NCBI GenBank assembly: GCA_005786805.1
Contig: SYCV01000228.1
Location: forward strand, 1 to 38,157
Length of the DNA stretch: 38,157 nucleotides
Direction: 5' to 3'
From: Planctomycetia bacterium
GTDB taxonomy: Bacteria > Planctomycetota > Planctomycetia > Gemmatales > Gemmataceae
Below the pieces are notes generated by a model. It had not been told where the DNA came from and did no database searches. It saw nothing but the letters and a program-made list of their open reading frames with translations. Made by a program: the position numbers and the translations under genes. Positions 23,080 through 33,866 of the stretch are shown piece by piece (position 1 is the first letter of the stretch; each line of letters starts with the position of its first letter).

Positions 23080-24342
23080 ATGATGGATATTAAAAGCTAC
23101 GCCCAAGAAATAGCATTTAAGGCCAGGACTGTTGCCGGGGTGCTGGCAACAATTAATACTCAACGGAAGAATGACTGGTTGTTGGCCTCGGCGGCACGAT
23201 TGCTGGACAACTCCAGTAAAATTATTGATGCAAACCACCTAGATCTGGAAAATGCATCGAGTTTTTCATTAAGTTCATCTCAGATTGACCGGCTGACCAT
23301 AACTCCAAAAAGACTTGCCGACATGTCCCGGTCCTTGGTTGAAATTGCCGGCCTTAAAGACCCTATTGGCAGGGTTCTAGAAGGAGGATTTCGGCCAAAT
23401 GGATTGCAGGTTCTCAAGGTTGGCGTCCCTTTGGGGGTGTTGTTTTTTATCTATGAATCTAGGCCAAATGTTACCACCGATGCCGCAGCATTGAGTTTCA
23501 AGAGTGGAAATGCGATAATATTAAGAGGTGGTAAGGAGGCATTGAACACCAACAAAGTTCTTGTTGAGATTCTTCAGGACGAACTTTTGAAATTGGGATT
23601 GCCATTGGATGCTGTTCAAATTGTTCAAATTCCGGACCGTGAAGTAGTTGGGGAATTACTGCAAAAATCACATTTGATTGATTTGGTTATTCCAAGGGGA
23701 GGCAAAGACTTGATTAAGCGGGTTTCCGCTGAGGCAAAAATGCCAGTTATGAAGCATTATGATGGTAATTGTCATGTTTATGTTGAATCTTCTGCGGATT
23801 TGGAAATGGCAGTTAAAATACTGGTGAATTCAAAGTGTCAGAGACCAGGGGTTTGTAATGCTGCAGAGAGTCTACTGGTTGATGAGAAAATCGCAAAAGT
23901 CGCGTTACCAATTTTTTACAAGGCCCTCTCGGAAAAAGGGGTTGAAGTAAGGGGATGTCCCTTAAGTTGTGCGATTGTGCCAGAACTCAAGAAAGCGACT
24001 GAAAATGATTATTATGAAGAGTTTCTTGAGTTGATCATTTCTGTAAAAGTGGTCTCTGATACAACCGCTGCTATTTGCCATATAAATCAATTTGGTTCGA
24101 GGCACACGGATGTTATTGTGACCTCCAGGTTGGATGTTTCAGAGCAATTTATCAAAGGGGTTGATTCCTCCGCGGTAATAGTAAATGCGAGTTCGAGGTT
24201 TAATGATGGCGGGCAACTTGGACTGGGCGCGGAGATAGGTATCAGCACTGACAAGTATCATGCCAGGGGACCTTGTGGATTAAATGAGCTGACATCTTAT
24301 AAATATGTTATACTAGGCAACGGTGAAATTCGGTTGGATTGA
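23080..24342 (+). CDS. proA: gamma-glutamyl phosphate reductase
   Basis: Second step of proline synthesis: NADPH-dependent reduction of glutamyl 5-phosphate to glutamate semialdehyde. 420 residues, close to the usual 415. Visible blocks are LKVGVPLGVLFFIYESRPNVTTDAA, SGNAIILRGGKEALNTN, LVIPRGGKDLI, and the active-site Cys in NSKCQRPGVCNAAESLLV. SRFNDGGQLGLGAEIGISTDKYHARGP near the C-terminus is typical of ProA. Two adjacent ATGs (23080 and 23083) are possible starts. It sits 36 bases after cdaR. No proB is in the window, so glutamate kinase must be encoded elsewhere. Osmolyte synthesis next to c-di-AMP genes is suggestive but unproven. Confidence 0.96.
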   Translation: MMDIKSYAQEIAFKARTVAGVLATINTQRKNDWLLASAARLLDNSSKIIDANHLDLENASSFSLSSSQIDRLTITPKRLADMSRSLVEIAGLKDPIGRVLEGGFRPNGLQVLKVGVPLGVLFFIYESRPNVTTDAAALSFKSGNAIILRGGKEALNTNKVLVEILQDELLKLGLPLDAVQIVQIPDREVVGELLQKSHLIDLVIPRGGKDLIKRVSAEAKMPVMKHYDGNCHVYVESSADLEMAVKILVNSKCQRPGVCNAAESLLVDEKIAKVALPIFYKALSEKGVEVRGCPLSCAIVPELKKATENDYYEEFLELIISVKVVSDTTAAICHINQFGSRHTDVIVTSRLDVSEQFIKGVDSSAVIVNASSRFNDGGQLGLGAEIGISTDKYHARGPCGLNELTSYKYVILGNGEIRLD

Positions 24343-24381
24343 TTTACATTACCCAAAGTTTAACCTTGAACAGGAGGAATC

Positions 24382-25920
24382 ATGGAACCGATGTTTATCA
24401 TGACAATCCTGTTTGTTGTGATCGCAATTTTGTTTTTTATAATCTTGAATTTCCGTGGAGATAAAGAGAGACAACAAATCACAGGGCTTTCACCGGTTTC
24501 GAGACAGCATCTTGAGATTTATCAGGGGCAGGATCTGCCATCATGGTTGATGGAAAAAACCAAGGTGAAGATCAAGAATTATTTGGATCGGGGGATGCAT
24601 AGTCATGTTGAAGGGTTGCTGAGACCCGGACTTGACTATGTTGTGGTTGTAAAAGCGCTCCTGGAAATTGGAACTCCGCAGTCTTTTGACATATTGCAAA
24701 AATCGTTTGGTAAAACCCATTCCAAAGATCCAATGGAGGATTTGTGGTATGCCATCGATATAACAAATGCGCTTCGCCAGGTTAACAGGGATGAAATATT
24801 ACCTGAAATTGTAACTTATCTTTGTAAACACCGTGGGCTTGCAATAGCGCCTTTATTCGCCGCGGAAGTGATAAGCTTTGATTCTTTTCCGGAATTACTA
24901 AAGTCGCCGATTCCCGAAGAGAGAAATTTTGCCGTGATAGCTTTGTCCCTGGCTATGGATGGCTTGCAATCGGGTATTTCCCTTGAGGTTTTTGCAGAGT
25001 CAAAAATTGGGAGCCTTTATGAACTTATATGGGAAAATAGGATTCAATACAATTGTGCGGTTTTAGTGGTTCTTTTTCAAAACGGTATCAGATTTTTAAG
25101 GCGTTATCATGGGATGAACGAGATACTGGACCGTGAATTGCAAAGTCCGGACGATTTCCGCTGGCAGATCATGCGCTTAGATTCACTTGAGCAGTCATTG
25201 AAATTTTATCTCGTTAATGCGCGCGCCTCTTTGTTTCAATTGCTTGAAAATTCATCCTGGAGCGAGCATGTCGAGGTTTTTCGCGCCTTATATTCATTAA
25301 AATGTGCCCCTCCGGTTTCTGCTTGGGATTGGCTTGCTGATCCAGGTTATCCGCACAAGTCTTTCGTCTGGGAATTATTTGCATTCGAAAAGGTCAACAA
25401 AGGGGCTGCCCTTGTGACCACCTATAAATCAGCTTTCCGTTTTAAGAATTTTAGTTGGCTCTACGCCAACGCAAATGCCAAGAAAATCGAGAAAATCGCA
25501 TTGGCTAAATGTCTTCGGTTTCATCCTGGTGCTGACACGGAAGGTTGTCTTTTGGAACTTGCAAATAGTGGTGATACCGCGGTAGCCCAGGAGGCATTGA
25601 CTAGCTTGGGTTGGTGGGAGCCAGTCAATAGGTCGGAAGTTCTTAAGACTCTTCACAGAATGCAAAAAGAAACAAAGACTGAGATAAACCTCGCAGCCAC
25701 AGCGGCACTTGCCCGATTGGGGGAGCGTAAATCACTTCAGTCGATTGCCAAAAATCTTATGAGCGAGGATCCATTAACCATTCATCAGGCAATACATACA
25801 ATTTCCACCCAGGGAATATCGCTACTTTGGCCGGATTTGGACCAATTGGCTGATTCATCAGATGCTGATGTCGCAATTCATGCCCGGGAAGCAATTGCTC
25901 ATCTTAGCGAACAAATGTAA
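24382..25920 (+). CDS. membrane-anchored HEAT-repeat protein of unknown function
   Basis: 512 residues. It has an N-terminal helix (MFIMTILFVVIAILFFIILN) followed by a positively charged segment (RGDKERQ), so the body probably faces the cytosol. The rest is helical. Clear HEAT-like repeats occur at the C-terminus: TAVAQEALTSLGWW, TEINLAATAALARLGERKSL and DADVAIHAREAIAHLSEQM. The middle (about 100-400) is poorly recognisable helical sequence. AGGAGGAATC before ATG is a strong ribosome site. Last gene of the ten-gene run, 39 bases after proA; its role there is unknown. Confidence 0.72.
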   Translation: MEPMFIMTILFVVIAILFFIILNFRGDKERQQITGLSPVSRQHLEIYQGQDLPSWLMEKTKVKIKNYLDRGMHSHVEGLLRPGLDYVVVVKALLEIGTPQSFDILQKSFGKTHSKDPMEDLWYAIDITNALRQVNRDEILPEIVTYLCKHRGLAIAPLFAAEVISFDSFPELLKSPIPEERNFAVIALSLAMDGLQSGISLEVFAESKIGSLYELIWENRIQYNCAVLVVLFQNGIRFLRRYHGMNEILDRELQSPDDFRWQIMRLDSLEQSLKFYLVNARASLFQLLENSSWSEHVEVFRALYSLKCAPPVSAWDWLADPGYPHKSFVWELFAFEKVNKGAALVTTYKSAFRFKNFSWLYANANAKKIEKIALAKCLRFHPGADTEGCLLELANSGDTAVAQEALTSLGWWEPVNRSEVLKTLHRMQKETKTEINLAATAALARLGERKSLQSIAKNLMSEDPLTIHQAIHTISTQGISLLWPDLDQLADSSDADVAIHAREAIAHLSEQM

Positions 25921-26315: not shown

Positions 26316-27257
26316 TTATTTAATTGGCGTGAACAATATAAAACTTGAATCATGGCCTGTAATGAGGGATTTTTCATCGGGTGAGAAGGCAATGCAATAA
26401 GCACCGAATAACTTTAGTTTTTTGTTGAAGGTGGCTTTTCCATCACCGATGTTCCAAACGGAAACATTTCCACCATATCCGCTAGTTGCCAAACTTTTTG
26501 AATCTTTGGATAGCGCCAATCCATATAAATCATCCGCAGTAGGCCCCAATTTTTTTGTCTCAGTTCCTGCTTGGGCATTCCAAAGTCTAACAAAGCGATC
26601 TTGGCCTATGGAGACAATGGAATTGTTGTCAGTGAAGACTAAACCTGTTATTGCTGCAGTCGGGCCTTTTAGAGATTTTGTTTCTTTTTGAGTTGCAACA
26701 TCCCATAGTTTGATGGTCATGTCCGCACTGCCTGACGCTAAAGTTTTTCCATCCGGTGAAAATGCCACGCTGTACACTGAGTTTGCGTGTGAACCCAGAG
26801 TCTTGAGCTCTTTGCCATCTGCAAGATTCCAAAGCTTGACGGATTTGTCGGAACTACATGAGGCAAGGGTTTTTCCATCGGGACTTATTGCGATTCCATC
26901 AACAATTCCCGTGTGCCCTTTGAGTTCCAAGGTCATTTTGCCATCCGCTGTATTCCATCGCTTAATAGTGGTATCAAGGCTTGAGGAAAATATTGAGGAA
27001 CCATCCTTTGTGAAACTAACCGCATAGACGGGACCGGTGTGGCCGGAGATGACACGAATTTCTTTTCCAGTTGCGTAATCCCAAAGCTTGACATTATTGT
27101 CAAAGCCCGCAGTTGCGATTGTTTTACCATCCGGGCTAAAAGCAACGGAATAAACCAGGGCGTTATGAGCTTTGATTTCTTCTGGTGGATAAGCCGTGGC
27201 AAAGCTGATGCCGATGATAAACGCCAAGCTAAATGCGGAAATTTTTCTAATTATCAT
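26316..27257 (-). CDS. exported WD40-repeat protein
   Basis: 313 residues from ATG 27257; TTG at 27263 is an alternative start. A signal peptide (ISAFSLAFIIGISFATAYP) is followed directly by WD40 repeats that fill the protein, about seven, enough for one closed propeller. Characteristic units include LVYSVAFSPDGKTIATAGFD with VKLWDYATGKE, PVYAVSFTKDGSSIFSSSLD with IKRWNTADGK, and SVYSVAFSPDGKTLASGSAD with IKLWDVATQKE. There is no enzymatic domain. Exported stand-alone WD40 proteins with this SPDGKTLAS style are frequent in planctomycetes. It probably acts as a periplasmic interaction scaffold; partner unknown. Divergent from the kinase gene across a long non-coding gap. Confidence 0.85.
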   Translation of the reverse strand: MIIRKISAFSLAFIIGISFATAYPPEEIKAHNALVYSVAFSPDGKTIATAGFDNNVKLWDYATGKEIRVISGHTGPVYAVSFTKDGSSIFSSSLDTTIKRWNTADGKMTLELKGHTGIVDGIAISPDGKTLASCSSDKSVKLWNLADGKELKTLGSHANSVYSVAFSPDGKTLASGSADMTIKLWDVATQKETKSLKGPTAAITGLVFTDNNSIVSIGQDRFVRLWNAQAGTETKKLGPTADDLYGLALSKDSKSLATSGYGGNVSVWNIGDGKATFNKKLKLFGAYCIAFSPDEKSLITGHDSSFILFTPIK

Positions 27258-27263
27258 GTTCAA

Positions 27264-27864
27264 ATACCTGTCTGGTGGGTTCTGGGGATTATCTGGATAA
27301 AACCTCTGGTGGGTAATTCAGGCGCAATCAATACCTGAGAATATTTCATGTATTAGTATATTTGGGACAAATTGCAACAATTTAATCGTCACCTTTGCAT
27401 TGATGTAATGCTGTCATGTTCCTAGACGCCAATTGGATGACTTTGGCTCATTACAACAGTTTTCTACCATTTAATATAAAGCTTTTATGCTTCAAAGTAA
27501 CTTGAAATGATGTTGATTTATTCTTGATTTTTTAAATAAATTTAGTGTGGCAAATTTGTTTCTTCTTCTATGCCATGTAAAAACTAGCACAGATTTTTTT
27601 GAATGGGCCTTTTATAAAATAAACATTGTTTGATTGTTTTTAGGGTGGGTTGTTTTGTGGGTTTTAATAAGAGAATGTCACCAATCAAAGGTGCGCTAGC
27701 GGATATCTTCAGGAGTTATCGCGTATTTTAAAACCAAAGATTGAAAAGAGTGATGTCTCATTCGTTTGGTAATTGACTGGAATTCTAATAAAAAAAATTC
27801 AATGTTGAGTAGATCCATAAAGCCGGTAGTATAAAGTGATTAAATTTTATTATGGAGTCGGGCA
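27264..27864. other. long non-coding intergenic region between the WD40 and kinase genes
   Basis: About 600 AT-rich bases between two divergent genes. I see no open frame with a ribosome site beyond a few dozen codons (one 18-codon frame begins at 27675), no tRNA-like cloverleaf and no long repeat. It holds a possible kinase promoter near its right end and short AT-rich inverted repeats of no clear meaning. Confidence 0.5.
27805..27835 (+). promoter_or_regulatory. possible promoter of the kinase operon
   Basis: TTGAGT (27805-27810) with TAGTAT at 27827-27832 (16-base spacer) or the overlapping TATAAA at 27830-27835 (19-base spacer), about 30 bases before the kinase ATG. Motif match only. Confidence 0.3.
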
Positions 27865-28713
27865 ATGAAAATTAATAAGTTCGCAGTTGTTGGGCCTTTG
27901 GGAAATGGAGCGCAAAGTGCGATTCTCCAAATCCGAATGGTTGATACTGCTGAAAATTTCGCTTTAAAAGTTGTTCCATTGGAATCGCCCGAAGACCTCA
28001 AATTCAAGGACCAAGCCGAGCATGAATTTAAAGTTGCCCAAATGTTCGATCACCCAAATCTTATCAAGATATTTGCCTTGGAGCCTGTGAAGGATTGGTT
28101 GTTCAGGGTGAAAAAAATGCATATGCTCATCGAGTTTGTTGATGGAAAAACAATCGATGAGGCTCCAAGGCTTTCTCCCATACGCGTCATGCAAGTATTC
28201 GAGCAAGTTGCTTCGGCTCTTGTCCATATGCATAAAAAAGGTGTGTTTCATGCTGATATAAAGCCCAACAACATCATGCTAAGTAAAGAAGGTGTGGTGA
28301 AAGTAATCGATTTTGGCCTTTCTTGGATCAGGGATGAGCCCAAGGACCGAATTCAAGGCACGCCTGAGTATATGGCTCCAGAGCAGGCTAAGCACAAAAT
28401 GGTCAATGAAAGGACGGATATTTATTCGCTTGGGGCCGCCATGTACAAAATGATTACTGGAAAACTTCCCCCGCCGTCCTTGAATGATGAAAACAAGCCT
28501 ATTGAATTAAAGACCTGGCAAAAGCAATTCAAGCCCGTTGATTTGCTGATACCGACTTTAAACAAGAGTCTTGCTGAACTTATAAATAGGTGCCTGTCTT
28601 TTCAGGCCACCGCGAGGCCAGAAAGAATGAGCGAGGTCCAGGGAACCCTGGACAGATTAGTTGAAGAGCAACTCAAAAACCCGAATGATGGGCTTGCAGG
28701 TTTGGAGTGGTAG
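27865..28713 (+). CDS. soluble serine/threonine protein kinase (PknB-like), HAD-type catalytic loop
   Basis: 282 residues that comprise a single kinase domain with no membrane helix or sensor region. Visible elements are the glycine loop GPLGNGAQSAI, the ATP-binding Lys35 in NFALKVVPLE, the helix-C Glu in AEHEFKVAQMFDHPNLI, and the catalytic loop HADIKPNN (Asp131, Lys133, Asn136). The usual Arg of HRD is Ala130. DFG is intact (IDFGLSW, Asp149), the activation-segment end is GTPEYMAPEQ, and the C-lobe motif is TDIYSLGAAMYKMITGKLP. All phosphotransfer residues are present, so it should be active; an HAD loop suggests activation-segment phosphorylation is not needed. GGAG lies upstream of ATG. 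DUF3754 and aminotransferase genes follow closely (36 and 24 bases). Its substrates are unknown. Confidence 0.93.
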   Translation: MKINKFAVVGPLGNGAQSAILQIRMVDTAENFALKVVPLESPEDLKFKDQAEHEFKVAQMFDHPNLIKIFALEPVKDWLFRVKKMHMLIEFVDGKTIDEAPRLSPIRVMQVFEQVASALVHMHKKGVFHADIKPNNIMLSKEGVVKVIDFGLSWIRDEPKDRIQGTPEYMAPEQAKHKMVNERTDIYSLGAAMYKMITGKLPPPSLNDENKPIELKTWQKQFKPVDLLIPTLNKSLAELINRCLSFQATARPERMSEVQGTLDRLVEEQLKNPNDGLAGLEW

Positions 28714-28749
28714 TTGATTTTTCAGGGTGGCAGATTGGAAATTTGACCT

Positions 28750-29973
28750 ATGGCCAACCATCGCCATCTTGAAAATTCGATACTGGTCAGGAAGGGCGAT
28801 CTTGTCCGGCTTATAATTGATGATTGTGGATTTGACCATAAAGACAAGGAAAAGTTGATTTTATTACTTGAGGCCATTTGCTCGCTTATCTTCATGGAAT
28901 TTGTAGAGCCCCTTGAGGCGATGAAGTCTGCTTATTATTTTTTTGATCCTGATTCCGATCATTTGGTAATAAAAAAAACGATCAATAATAATCCCCCTGA
29001 CACATCGATTGATATTTTGGAATCAGGTTTTGTAAAATTGATTGAACACGCCAATTTTAAAAAACTAACATGGGAAAATGTGCATCAGTGGGAACAGGAG
29101 TCTTCCAAGTCCTGGGGGCTGAATGTTCAGATTCAGCAGGAGGAATTTGACAGGCTTCTGATGTACTACAGGGGTGATACATATCTCCTCAGGCGGTCAT
29201 CGAAATGGTGGAAGCCTTGGAAAAAAGAAAAAATCCCAACACCTGGTTTTTCCCGCTTTGCCATTTTTGTAAAAATGAAGCCTCGCATGAAGGATGATTC
29301 TTCCACTTTTTCAAATCATGTGATCCTCAAACTATTCAAGGATATTGCTAAAAATGAAATTCCCATGATTTTCCCTGGTGCAAAGGTGCGTCTTAATCGA
29401 ATTGATCAAAGTATGATTGGATACCCCATCATCACGGGGTTAGGTTTGTTGCTTTATAATGTGATCGTGGGCATTTTGAAGTTGGGTCTTAGCGCATTGA
29501 TGGGGATTACAATATGGCCTTTGGCCTTGGCCTTTGGAGGTTATGGATATCGTAGTTACTATAACTATGTGACCAAAAGGCAAAATTATGACTTGAGAAT
29601 GACTAAGACCCTTTATTTTCAATCGCTTGATAGTAATTCAGGGGTAATAACCAGGCTATTGGATGAGGCTGAGGAACAGCAAAGCCGTGAAGCATTACTG
29701 GGATATTACTGCCTTCTTAAATATGCGCCTGATTCCGGTTGGACTACGACCCAGCTTGATGATTTTATTGAGCTCTTCTTTAACCAGCATTTTGAAAAAA
29801 AGATAGACTATGATGTTGTGGATTGTGTTAAAAAGCTTCAATCATTCGGGTTGGTTGAAACTTCCAATGAAAGATTGAAAGCTGTTCCTGTTGGGGAAGC
29901 CCTGACGAAATTGCAATCCCAATGGCCTCAAAGATTATTCGGAAAAAATTTGTTTTCCCGGTTTTTAAAATGA
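28750..29973 (+). CDS. DUF3754 (TMEM143-like) membrane protein
   Basis: 407 residues. The middle contains LLRRSSKWWKPWKKEKIPTP and FVKMKPRMKDDS, a hydrophobic segment with two helices (YPIITGLGLLLYNVIVGILK and LGLSALMGITIWPLALAFGG), then KRQNYDLRMTKTLYFQSLDSN and GVITRLLDEAEEQQSREALLGYYCLL. These are the hallmark blocks of DUF3754, a family shared with mitochondrial TMEM143. The N- and C-terminal parts are soluble. The family has no assigned biochemical activity. It follows the kinase gene by 36 bases, so it may be its substrate or partner, but this is inference. ATG 28750 is the first start in frame; the ribosome site is weak. Confidence 0.8.
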   Translation: MANHRHLENSILVRKGDLVRLIIDDCGFDHKDKEKLILLLEAICSLIFMEFVEPLEAMKSAYYFFDPDSDHLVIKKTINNNPPDTSIDILESGFVKLIEHANFKKLTWENVHQWEQESSKSWGLNVQIQQEEFDRLLMYYRGDTYLLRRSSKWWKPWKKEKIPTPGFSRFAIFVKMKPRMKDDSSTFSNHVILKLFKDIAKNEIPMIFPGAKVRLNRIDQSMIGYPIITGLGLLLYNVIVGILKLGLSALMGITIWPLALAFGGYGYRSYYNYVTKRQNYDLRMTKTLYFQSLDSNSGVITRLLDEAEEQQSREALLGYYCLLKYAPDSGWTTTQLDDFIELFFNQHFEKKIDYDVVDCVKKLQSFGLVETSNERLKAVPVGEALTKLQSQWPQRLFGKNLFSRFLK

Positions 29974-29997
29974 TTTTTTGTTCATGAAAGGCTGGAA

Positions 29998-31134
29998 ATG
30001 AAAAATCAAGACAGCGTGGTGGAAGATTGGATTTCGGAACGAATGTATCACATTGAATCATCAGGAATAAGAAAAGTCTTTGAGTTGGCTAAATCAATCA
30101 AAGATCCAATAAATTTGAGCATTGGGCAGCCAGATTTTGATGTCCCTGAGGAAGTTAAAAAATCCGCCAAGGATGCGATTGATTCTGGAAAGAATTCGTA
30201 CACACTTACCCAGGGAATTCCGGAACTTAGGAGCCTGTTGCTGGGAAGGGTTAATAATCAGTTTCAAGGGGACAATCGAGATTTAATAATCACAAGTGGC
30301 ACCAGCGGCGCGTTGGTTCTCGCTTTATGCTGCGTGGTTGACCCAGGGGACGAAGTTATTATTTTTGATCCGTATTTTGTCATGTACCCTCACCTTGTTT
30401 CACTTGCTGGTGGTAAATCAGTTTTTATTGACACTTATCCGGATTTTGAAATTGATATTAAGAAGGTTGAAAAAGCTATTACAAAGAAAACCAAGGTGAT
30501 TCTCTTTAATAACCCTGCGAACCCCACAGGAAAAACTTATTCTCTTGAAACAGTCAAGTCGCTTGCAGAACTTGCTGAAAAGCATGGGATACTTTTGATC
30601 TCAGACGAAATATATAGTGTTTTTAACTATGATGGTGCGTTTCAGACTCCGGCACAATTTAATCGAAATGTATTGGTTTTGGATGGTTTTAGTAAATCCT
30701 ATGGAATGACAGGTTGGCGAATGGGATATGCTCACGGCCCGATTAAATTAATCCAGGAAATGATTAAATTGCAGCAGTTTACATTCGTATGCGCCCCAAG
30801 TATGGTTCAGTATGCGGGAATCACTGCCCTTCAACAGGATATGTCCGGCTTTATCGAGGAATACAAACAAAAGCGGGATTTTCTGTTGAATGGTATTAAG
30901 GATTATTATGAAATTCCAAACGCAGGCGGAGCTTTTTATCTTTTTCCCAGAGCCCCGGGTGGAAATAGCACGGTTTTTGTGGAAAAAGCCATTCAGCACG
31001 ACTTATTAATTATTCCAGGCAAAACTTTTAGTTCCGTTGACACCAACTTCAGGATAAGTTTTGCCGCAAAAAAGCATGTTTTAGAGAGGGGCGTTGAAGT
31101 GCTTCGTAAACTCTCAAAACTTTTTAATGATTAA
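29998..31134 (+). CDS. pyridoxal-phosphate-dependent aminotransferase, class I/II
   Basis: 378 residues, the size of aspartate/LL-diaminopimelate-type fold-I aminotransferases. Motifs: NLSIGQPDFDVPEEVKKSA at the N-terminus, TSGTSGALVLALCCVVDPGDEV, LFNNPANPTGKTYS (Asn for the cofactor), LISDEIYSVFNYDG, DGFSKSYGMTGWRMGY with the Schiff-base Lys, and FRISFAAKKHVLERG with the carboxylate-binding Arg. The substrate amino acid cannot be fixed from sequence; aspartate or aromatic/branched-chain aminotransferase are all possible. It is 24 bases after the DUF3754 gene on the same strand and probably cotranscribed, though a metabolic link to the kinase is unclear. Confidence 0.9.
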   Translation: MKNQDSVVEDWISERMYHIESSGIRKVFELAKSIKDPINLSIGQPDFDVPEEVKKSAKDAIDSGKNSYTLTQGIPELRSLLLGRVNNQFQGDNRDLIITSGTSGALVLALCCVVDPGDEVIIFDPYFVMYPHLVSLAGGKSVFIDTYPDFEIDIKKVEKAITKKTKVILFNNPANPTGKTYSLETVKSLAELAEKHGILLISDEIYSVFNYDGAFQTPAQFNRNVLVLDGFSKSYGMTGWRMGYAHGPIKLIQEMIKLQQFTFVCAPSMVQYAGITALQQDMSGFIEEYKQKRDFLLNGIKDYYEIPNAGGAFYLFPRAPGGNSTVFVEKAIQHDLLIIPGKTFSSVDTNFRISFAAKKHVLERGVEVLRKLSKLFND

Positions 31135-31160
31135 AATCTAGGATTGTTTTCAGAGAAGTG

Positions 31161-31190
31161 TTGACTTATTGTGGTTGAACCCGCCAAAAT
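31161..31190 (+). promoter_or_regulatory. possible promoter of the pseudo-caspase/S41 gene
   Basis: TTGACT (31161-31166), 18-base spacer, CAAAAT (31185-31190; four of six matches). Lies about 66 bases before the ATG at 31257. Weak motif evidence only. Confidence 0.25.
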
Positions 31191-31256
31191 GAATTAAGTC
31201 CTGATAATTTTTGGATTTAAAGATAACTTGCTAGGATATCGAAAGGAATTTGGATT

Positions 31257-33866
31257 ATGTCAAGGTTGCTTTTAAAACTCGCTTTAGCCTCTTTGTTTTT
31301 AATATCCTTTACTTCCTTTGTTTCTTCGGCAGAAAACAAGCAAAATGTTTACACCGTGATTGTGGGTGTTAGCAAATATAAAGATGCTCAGATTAAAGAA
31401 AAACCAAAAGCTGAAGCTGATGCGATTGCTTTGTTTAAATTGCTAGCAGACAAAAACATTCTTGGTTTGACAAAAGACAATGGGAAGTTATTGCTTGGTG
31501 AGCCTTCAAAAGCAAAAGACTTGTCTGATTACACCTCTGAGGCTACTCGGGAAAATGTTATCGCAGCTTTGAAGTGGGTTTCTTCTAAAGCCACGCCTGA
31601 TGACATGGTCATCTTTGGCTTTTTTGGCCAGGGTGGTCCAATGGGTGATAGTGGGGATCGTCGTTGTTATTTCACAAGTGACTCCACTTTTTTGGGCCGA
31701 GACAAAAACGCATTAGCTAGTAGCGACCTTGCTGACACACTTAAGACATTAAAGGCCGGCAAATTTTGTTCTTTTGTTGATATAAATTTCAAGGGATTTC
31801 AAGCGGGGCAGGGCAAAGCTGTTGCCGAGGCATCCCTTGGTGCCAATCCATATCAGGAATTTCTCGGAGAAGATGCCTCTGAAGACCATCTACCTCTTCC
31901 TGGGAGGGTTGTTTTTCTTGCTACCAATGGTTTATATCCCTCGGTGGAAGCGGACGACCATGGTGTATTTGCCAAGGCTGTCATTGAGGGGCTGTCGGGT
32001 GAAGCCGACAAAGAGGGTTATGAACCTGATGGCATGGTCACGGTAGACGAACTTGCTGAGTTTCTTGATAAAAAAATGACAGATTTGACAAAGCAATACG
32101 GCAAAACCAAGGAAGAAAAAAATCAGCCACATTGGGTTCTGGGCGGGAGAACAAATCATTTTGTCCTGACTCATAATCCTAAGGAGTTTGCAAAGGCAAA
32201 GGATCGTCTCGAAAAATTTGAAAAGATTGTCGCATCAAAAAAGATTCCTGAGGAGTTGAAATCTGAAGGAGTACTTTTACTTTCAAAAATGCCTAAACTT
32301 GAGGCTCAAAGAAATTTGAGAAGGGAATATCAAAATCTTGTGGACGGAAAGGTTGATGGTCCCGGATTTGAAGCTAAAAGAAACGAAATACTTGAACAAA
32401 CAAAACTAAGCAAAGATAAAGCGGATGCTTTTGCCAAAAAGGTTCAACAAGCTATAGAGGTGATTCGTAAAGGTTATGTAAAGGATGTGAATCCGGGTGA
32501 AATGACTGCATGGGCGATCAAGGGTTTATATCGAAGAATTGAAGAAAAAATTCCTGATGGGCTCGCAGCAAAAATTAAGAATCCCAAGGATTTGCGTGAG
32601 CCTGATATTGTAAAAGTCCTTTCTGAAGCCCGTCTTCATCTTGGTAAAAGGGAAGATCTAGAAAATGGCAAGGATGTTGACATAACCCTGCAAAGGATGC
32701 TTGGTAATCTCGATCCGTACACAACCTATATCGATGGCGAAACCAAGGCTAATTTTGACAGAGATGTTCAGGGCAATTTCACCGGAATCGGGGTCCAAAT
32801 TCGCAAGGATGCCGTATCTGAGATGCTATTGGTTGTCACGCCGATTAAAAATAGTCCTGCCTACAAGGCTGGAGTTATGGCTGGAGATATCATTTCCACA
32901 GTTATTCGTGAAGTAGACAGCGAGGGGAAACCATTGCCCAAACCTGAGGTTATATCGACAAAAGGAATGCAACTTTCTGATGCGGTTAAAAAGATCCTTG
33001 GAAAGCCAAATACAAAAGTGAAAATTGTTGTTCAACGCGAGGGGGTTGAAAAACCCATTGAATTTGAAATAAGCAGAGGGCGGGTTGAAGTTGAAACAGT
33101 ATTGGGTTTTAAACGAAAAGATAATGATGATTGGGACTTCATGATTGATCCAACTTCAAAAATTGGATACGCCCGAGTCACAAGTTTTTCTAGAAATACC
33201 GCAAGAGACCTTTTGAAAGTCATGCGTGAACTTGTTTCCAAGGGGATCAAGGGTTTTGTTCTTGATCTTAGATTTAATCCGGGTGGATTGCTTGATAGTG
33301 CGGTTGATATTTCTGATTTATTCATAGGGGATGGGCTGATCGTTAGCATCAGGCCTCGTCAGGGAAGAGAGCAAAAGCATACTGGTGTTCTGGATGGAAG
33401 TCTTCTTGATTTTCCGATGGCCTGTCTTGTGAATGGCGGAAGTGCAAGTGGAAGTGAGATTGTTTCTGCCGCTGTCCAAGATCATCATCGTGCAATTATC
33501 ATTGGGGAGAGAAGTTATGGCAAAGGTAGTGTTCAAAACATCCAGGCTTTTGGTGATGGTGAGTTAAAACTTACCATAGCCTCATTCTGGAGACCAAGTG
33601 GCAAGAACCTCAATAAATCCAGCACTGGTGGTAAGGATGAAGACGAGTGGGGTGTAAAGCCAGATATTGAGATCAAGCTCTCACGCAAGGAACGGGATGA
33701 CTTGATGGATCATCAAAGAGATATCGAGGTTATCCAAAGAAAAGATAAACCGAGTCCGCCAGCCAGCAAAGATTTCAAAGATCGCCAGTTAGATGAGGCT
33801 TTGAAATATATCAAGGGCTTAATCTCTACAGTCAGTAATGAACCAGCCACTAAAAAGGCAAGCTAG
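31257..33866 (+). CDS. exported fusion of a degenerate caspase-like domain with a PDZ/S41 C-terminal-processing protease
   Basis: 869 residues. Signal peptide LALASLFLISFTSFVSSA (about 1-25). Residues 30-310 form a peptidase C14 caspase-like domain: VYTVIVGVSKYKDAQ, FGFFGQGGPMG and FCSFVDINFKG; the catalytic His of the FFSGHG motif is Gln125 and the catalytic Cys of the DxCHSG motif is Asn177. A helical linker (about 310-500) is followed by a PDZ domain (about 500-615; FTGIGVQIRKDAVSEMLLVV, SPAYKAGVMAGDIIS) and an S41 peptidase domain. The latter has GFVLDLRFNPGGLLDSAVDI, NGGSASGSEIVSA with nucleophile Ser731, and RSYGKGSVQ with Lys756. The 25-residue Ser-Lys spacing matches CtpA. So the protease half looks active and the caspase half inactive. 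The ATG is first in frame. A terminator follows. Periplasmic proteolysis of unknown substrates is likely. Confidence 0.9.
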   Translation: MSRLLLKLALASLFLISFTSFVSSAENKQNVYTVIVGVSKYKDAQIKEKPKAEADAIALFKLLADKNILGLTKDNGKLLLGEPSKAKDLSDYTSEATRENVIAALKWVSSKATPDDMVIFGFFGQGGPMGDSGDRRCYFTSDSTFLGRDKNALASSDLADTLKTLKAGKFCSFVDINFKGFQAGQGKAVAEASLGANPYQEFLGEDASEDHLPLPGRVVFLATNGLYPSVEADDHGVFAKAVIEGLSGEADKEGYEPDGMVTVDELAEFLDKKMTDLTKQYGKTKEEKNQPHWVLGGRTNHFVLTHNPKEFAKAKDRLEKFEKIVASKKIPEELKSEGVLLLSKMPKLEAQRNLRREYQNLVDGKVDGPGFEAKRNEILEQTKLSKDKADAFAKKVQQAIEVIRKGYVKDVNPGEMTAWAIKGLYRRIEEKIPDGLAAKIKNPKDLREPDIVKVLSEARLHLGKREDLENGKDVDITLQRMLGNLDPYTTYIDGETKANFDRDVQGNFTGIGVQIRKDAVSEMLLVVTPIKNSPAYKAGVMAGDIISTVIREVDSEGKPLPKPEVISTKGMQLSDAVKKILGKPNTKVKIVVQREGVEKPIEFEISRGRVEVETVLGFKRKDNDDWDFMIDPTSKIGYARVTSFSRNTARDLLKVMRELVSKGIKGFVLDLRFNPGGLLDSAVDISDLFIGDGLIVSIRPRQGREQKHTGVLDGSLLDFPMACLVNGGSASGSEIVSAAVQDHHRAIIIGERSYGKGSVQNIQAFGDGELKLTIASFWRPSGKNLNKSSTGGKDEDEWGVKPDIEIKLSRKERDDLMDHQRDIEVIQRKDKPSPPASKDFKDRQLDEALKYIKGLISTVSNEPATKKAS

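Follow-up and report, generated by a model that had tools for sequence, protein, structure and literature searches.

A non-RD kinase gene of the Gemmatales usually stands divergent from putA and, in about half of its loci, precedes a gene for a DUF3754 membrane protein

Among described bacterial kinases, PknG of Actinobacteria has the setting closest to the one treated here. In the available text of PMC6069109 and PMC9769921, PknG is a kinase without membrane and extracellular domains that requires the operon-encoded GlnX and GlnH for the control of glutamate use, and the part of PMC6069109 consulted gives its TPR domain as conserved in all PknG homologues. The locus considered here is in the window, which is the whole 38,157-nucleotide contig SYCV01000228.1 (forward strand, assembly GCA_005786805.1) of a Planctomycetia bacterium from the family Gemmataceae; order, class and phylum below refer to Gemmatales, Planctomycetia and Planctomycetota. 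Three genes, for a Hanks-type kinase, a membrane protein of the DUF3754 family and an aminotransferase, follow one another on the plus strand, the first two separated by 36 and the last two by 24 nucleotides (nt). This order and the 36-base gap had been given in an earlier note on the DNA, and the open reading frames (ORFs) and the Pfam matches, all three well above the profile cut-offs, agree with it. The window holds the kinase half of a Gemmatales module in which putA, or its proline dehydrogenase half, is divergent from a non-RD kinase, that is, one whose family differs from RD kinases in the absence of the arginine before the catalytic Asp. At roughly half of the kinase loci of the order the next gene is DUF3754, often with an aspartate-type aminotransferase after it. 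The system resembles that of PknG, GlnX and GlnH in that a soluble kinase without a receptor domain is paired in an operon-like manner with a membrane protein, and in a neighbourhood or role in the use of glutamate-family amino acids. It differs in that no solute-binding lipoprotein lies beside the kinase in the window, and in that a link of the kinase to putA is not described for PknG, the word ‘proline’ having no match in the available text of PMC6069109.

The divergent gene, of about 1000 codons, was found by clustering six-frame ORFs around 40 kinases of the order that lie away from DUF3754. In the relatives it has the PutA_N (E 1e-24), Pro_dh (2.9e-87) and Aldedh (6.4e-136) domains of PutA, whereas the window keeps a decayed 3′ fossil only. 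It lies divergent and within 3 kb of the kinase at 73 of 89 loci of the order, 39/49 in the set of DUF3754 loci and 34/40 in the other set. The 89 kinases come from 89 of the 91 matching genomes, the loci of G039 and G070 being left out, and the 73 linked loci include G082, where putA is a stump. PutA is split in three genomes (G037:C275, G038:C158 and G040:C136), in each of which the proline dehydrogenase half adjoins the kinase while the other half is on a different contig. In G075, proA, a HEAT-repeat gene, putA, the kinase and DUF3754 span 10.2 kb, with aminotransferase and S41 genes downstream. The absence of the kinase from G085 is likely an assembly artefact, because the contig stops 136 nt upstream of putA.

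The two neighbours can be compared on a tree of 109 kinases, made by a quick method, in which 44 of 106 inner branches are starred. Adjacency to DUF3754 is found at 48 of the 89 order loci and takes at least 21 state changes; without six loci that end within 1.4 kb past the kinase, all of them among the 41 scored as having no DUF3754, the values are 48 of 83 and at least 18. Adjacency to putA takes 12 changes on the full tree, and 12 also without the six contig-end rows. putA is a steadier neighbour of the kinase than DUF3754 and the more informative lead, and such a neighbourhood hints that the kinase may control amino-acid use. The earlier note missed this neighbour since it is invisible from the letters of the window, in which the fossil alone remains.

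A Pro_dh match is found neither in the window's genome, which is 88.7% complete, nor in G082, and is present in the other five congeners. The remnant in G082 is an 89-codon stump that corresponds to PutA residues 915-1003 with 97% identity and sits between the kinase and WD40 genes. The fossil in the window gives two blastn matches of 93 nt each, at 74% (E 1.3e-12) and 71% (E 1.9e-4), and a tblastn match, interrupted by stops, to the C-terminal end of PutA (E 1.5e-6); the top blastn value among 100 letter shuffles is 0.002. On the tree the kinase of G082 groups with the kinases of putA-bearing congeners (support 93), so that the losses of putA in the window's genome and in G082 are not necessarily one event.

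Profile searches with the kinase give kinase-fold matches only, with no membrane, sensor or receptor part among them, so that the earlier description of it as sensorless agrees with Pfam. Like the PknB-like bacterial Hanks kinases (PF00069), it has the full set of kinase motifs, and PknB is among the closest solved kinases; its family differs from them in having a conserved HAD, HGD or HSD loop, often DYG, and no other domain. K35, E54, D131 and D149 are present in 47/47 DUF3754-adjacent orthologues, of which 95% or more also have N136. The conservation of the lysine, the glutamate and both aspartates in all 47 speaks for an active kinase. The catalytic loop of the window kinase is HAD and not HRD, as had been noticed before, and this is a conserved feature rather than an oddity: the aligned orthologues have HAD (76), HGD (30) or HSD (3), and HRD occurs in 0/109. 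The phylum-level homologues fetched, 20 of the 29 non-own matches listed, have HAD or HCD in 20/20 and are all non-RD. DYG replaces DFG in 57 of 89 order orthologues, and the DFG-to-APE segment measures 25 residues in 105 of 109. Such regularity points to a stable non-RD kinase family rather than a degraded kinase. A match at E 1e-50 or better is found in 91 of the 102 order genomes, one in each except three, against 25 to 219 kinase-like candidates per genome of the order (at most 24 candidates per genome were scored in the order, 8 in the class and 7 in the phylum). At 1e-40 the kinase is also found in class families f3, f5 and f7, and it occurs in 27 further genomes from a 343-genome phylum draw. 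The window kinase is 88% identical to that of the closest congener. Compared with G082, the kinase has a nonsynonymous divergence (dN) of 0.068 and DUF3754 one of 0.196; the synonymous divergence is saturated, so that dN alone is usable. At three kinase loci outside the order (L308, L309 and L315), an ORF of 589-636 codons lies directly downstream on the same strand, and that of L308 reads as helicase-like, judged without a profile.

DUF3754 is represented by 81 loci in the order, one per matching genome (80 fetched plus the window), of which 76 extend 1.2 kb or more upstream. An orthologous kinase lies within 700 bp upstream on the same strand at 47 of these 76, in both families of the order. 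Since so many loci carry the pair, it is not confined to the window's genome; such confinement was the outcome that the earlier note had set against its own proposal. The aminotransferase, whose closest solved chains are 1dju and 1gd9, lies within 2.6 kb downstream of DUF3754 in 37 of the 72 order loci with enough downstream DNA. A scan of 27260-31400 for promoter- and terminator-like sites gave values at or below shuffle level, with none in either gap. Co-transcription of kinase, DUF3754 and aminotransferase genes is plausible, and the scan fits an operon without proving one.

The window's DUF3754 protein matches family PF12576, to which we take the TMEM143 protein to belong; no function for this family was found in the literature, as judged by titles and the openings of abstracts. 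It is a single-copy protein in the window's genome and occurs in 81/102 genomes of the order, in 120/297 of an even class draw that includes genomes of the order, and in 0/14 control genomes. The structure model, built with 69 sequences (predicted local distance difference test, pLDDT, 87.7; predicted template modelling score, pTM, 0.83), has N-terminal helices and long strands, followed by a membrane hairpin whose turn is short and, at the C-terminus, a winged helix. The hairpin corresponds to 19-residue hydropathy above 1.6 for segments starting within 222-245 and to model helices at 217-244 and 252-290. Both termini should be cytosolic, given the even number of membrane passes and the basic flanks, and a periplasmic sensor would then be absent. 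In VIA the winged helix matches helix-turn-helix proteins 5bpd and 2d1h (root mean square deviation 3.5 and 4.0) with Z 8.3 over 98 aligned residues, a level also reached by common arrangements, and the matched ranges of the model also span the N-terminal helices. With the whole model, Foldseek gives no match at E 0.001 or below (top 0.048). The N-terminal domain alone (pLDDT 85.5) has no solved match, with a Foldseek top of 0.75 and a VIA top Z of 4.1, which does not establish a new fold. The top profile match among solved chains, a diguanylate cyclase at E 0.0043, was taken as chance and rejected as a relative. Extra pieces of DUF3754 occur in G039 (L092, G039:C216; L125, G039:C210), one of them with an internal stop. 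The name of L177, which is titled Candidatus Kuenenia stuttgartiensis, looks wrong because its DUF3754 shares 70% identity with that of the window and its gene order is that of the window's congeners.

The reading of the module that we prefer, with a probability of about one in three, is by analogy: the cytosolic kinase would tune proline and glutamate use in a PknG-like logic, with DUF3754 as a membrane anchor or a client. A signal of amino-acid supply would feed the soluble, non-receptor kinase, which would phosphorylate a client in the cytosol, and this client would control how much nitrogen from proline and glutamate flows into central metabolism. Proline dehydrogenase acts at the membrane, and DUF3754 might hold the kinase or its client there. 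The aspartate-type aminotransferase may be part of the same nitrogen route. Since the kinase is intact after the loss of putA, its client would not be PutA alone, and a glutamate/2-oxoglutarate step would be the more likely client.

Several observations weigh against this reading. Outside the order, putA is beside the kinase in 0/19 class loci with at least 600 bp upstream and in 0/19 phylum loci with enough flank (L339, with 0.3 kb upstream, is excluded); DUF3754 is beside it in 0/20 class loci and near it in 0/20 further phylum loci (tblastn, one query). Within the order, putA is present and away from the kinase in at least seven genomes (G032, G034, G050, G056, G069, G071 and G098), and by hand reading the kinase is retained in 6 of the 10 genomes that have no PutA or proline dehydrogenase match, the window's included. 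Conserved adjacency is not rare in the order either, as the control pair of proA and the HEAT-repeat gene is adjacent in 62 of the 69 genomes that have both. Unlike PknG, the window kinase is a kinase fold alone (282 aa) without a TPR domain, and since this domain is absent, it resembles PknG in logic and not by membership. Unlike GlnX, the DUF3754 model has no periplasmic domain. For a client like GarA or OdhI, the genome has 10 FHA matches, and neither of the two proteins inspected (L325 and L329) is convincing.

It is also possible, if somewhat unlikely, that the neighbourhood is simply inherited, an ancestral block that decays gene by gene and whose members share a promoter region but are otherwise unconnected in function. 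The patchy loss across the kinase tree fits such decay, and so does the fall in retention with distance from DUF3754. Around order DUF3754 loci no more than 45% identical in DUF3754, taken with 7.5 kb flanks, the kinase is retained in 31/52, the aminotransferase in 22/48, S41 in 13/48, WD40 in 7/52 and HEAT in 2/52. Judged by these counts and by the proA-HEAT control, itself an example of another pair being kept, kinase and DUF3754 are retained together more often than the genes farther off and less often than a firm pair. Simple decay does not readily explain why putA stays with the kinase, in both families, at most loci away from DUF3754 despite the departure of the downstream genes, or why the proline dehydrogenase half alone stays by the kinase where PutA is split.

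A direct partnership, with the DUF3754 protein as a substrate or recruiter of the kinase and only an incidental place for proline metabolism, we consider rather unlikely. Partner or substrate relations had been proposed in the earlier note from the close spacing of the two genes, and this proposal is borne out in part. The adjacency does recur in the order, at the 48 kinase loci and in both families; in G040 two tandem DUF3754 copies follow the kinase (L088, G040:C136), and kinase and DUF3754 are both intact after the loss of putA. The step from adjacency to partnership is nevertheless a weak one, since its minimum of 18 to 21 state changes exceeds the 12 of putA and the pair is not seen outside the order. 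A hand count of the 102 order genomes, blurred by incomplete assemblies, finds both genes in 77, the kinase only in 14, DUF3754 only in 4 and neither in 7. Moreover, DUF3754 is more widespread without this kinase adjoining, and reaches the Alpha- and Gammaproteobacteria by the record titles of the best 80 of 95 matches. PD-T4-6 is a single kinase gene that gives abortive infection, and its profile is the top PADLOC match (E 7e-51 over nearly the whole kinase, next mad6 at 4e-50), but a stand-alone anti-phage kinase of this type is very improbable and was dropped, because the PADLOC kinase profiles are generic ones that model the general fold and would presumably match most Hanks kinases, and the kinase is near-universal, mostly single copy in the order and usually adjoins putA.

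Features of the locus, in positions of the window
Feature	Positions	Strand	Evidence
Hanks-type Ser/Thr kinase, cytosolic, non-RD, single domain, 282 aa	27865..28713	+	Pfam Pkinase (PF00069), E 1.4e-44
DUF3754 (PF12576) membrane protein, 407 aa	28750..29973	+	E 1.8e-22; 80.2 bits against a cut-off of 27; full coverage
Class I/II aminotransferase, aspartate-aminotransferase-like, 378 aa	29998..31134	+	Aminotran_1_2 (PF00155), E 2.3e-64
Predicted membrane hairpin of DUF3754 protein, about residues 222-266	29413..29547	+	hydropathy and model helices
Predicted C-terminal winged-helix part of DUF3754 protein, about residues 297-398	29638..29943	+	model secondary structure and VIA match
Decayed fossil of putA 3′ end (proline dehydrogenase/pyrroline-5-carboxylate (P5C) dehydrogenase)	27299..27541	-	blastn and tblastn
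Conserved part of kinase/putA intergenic region	27787..27832	no strand	87.5% over 48 columns to congener L083, E 2e-10
S41/CtpA-type peptidase, caspase-like N-terminus, next gene downstream of aminotransferase	31257..33866	+	Peptidase_S41, E 5.6e-46
WD40 protein	26316..27263	-	profile match; in congener G082 directly after the putA stump, same strand (DNA of L086)

The caspase-like N-terminus of the S41 peptidase is a weak match to NF047832 (E 1.5e-8), below the cut-off of that profile. proA and the HEAT-repeat gene are also present in the window, at 23080-25920.

No description of a module of kinase, putA and DUF3754 was found in the literature, as judged by titles and the openings of abstracts. 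According to the available text of PMC11032199, members of the Gemmataceae have about 100 protein kinases. Against this number, a mostly single-copy cytosolic kinase beside a proline-catabolic gene across the order offers an unusually tractable starting point: the neighbourhood of kinase and putA gives a named pathway, and DUF3754, a family of no known function, adjoins it. A broader reading, which we regard as improbable, is that the phylum-wide family of non-RD cytosolic kinases is the planctomycete counterpart of PknG and that in Gemmatales it senses amino-acid supply via DUF3754, as a winged-helix protein anchored in the membrane, and gates the oxidation of proline and glutamate. If true, it would provide the first function for the DUF3754 (TMEM143) family.

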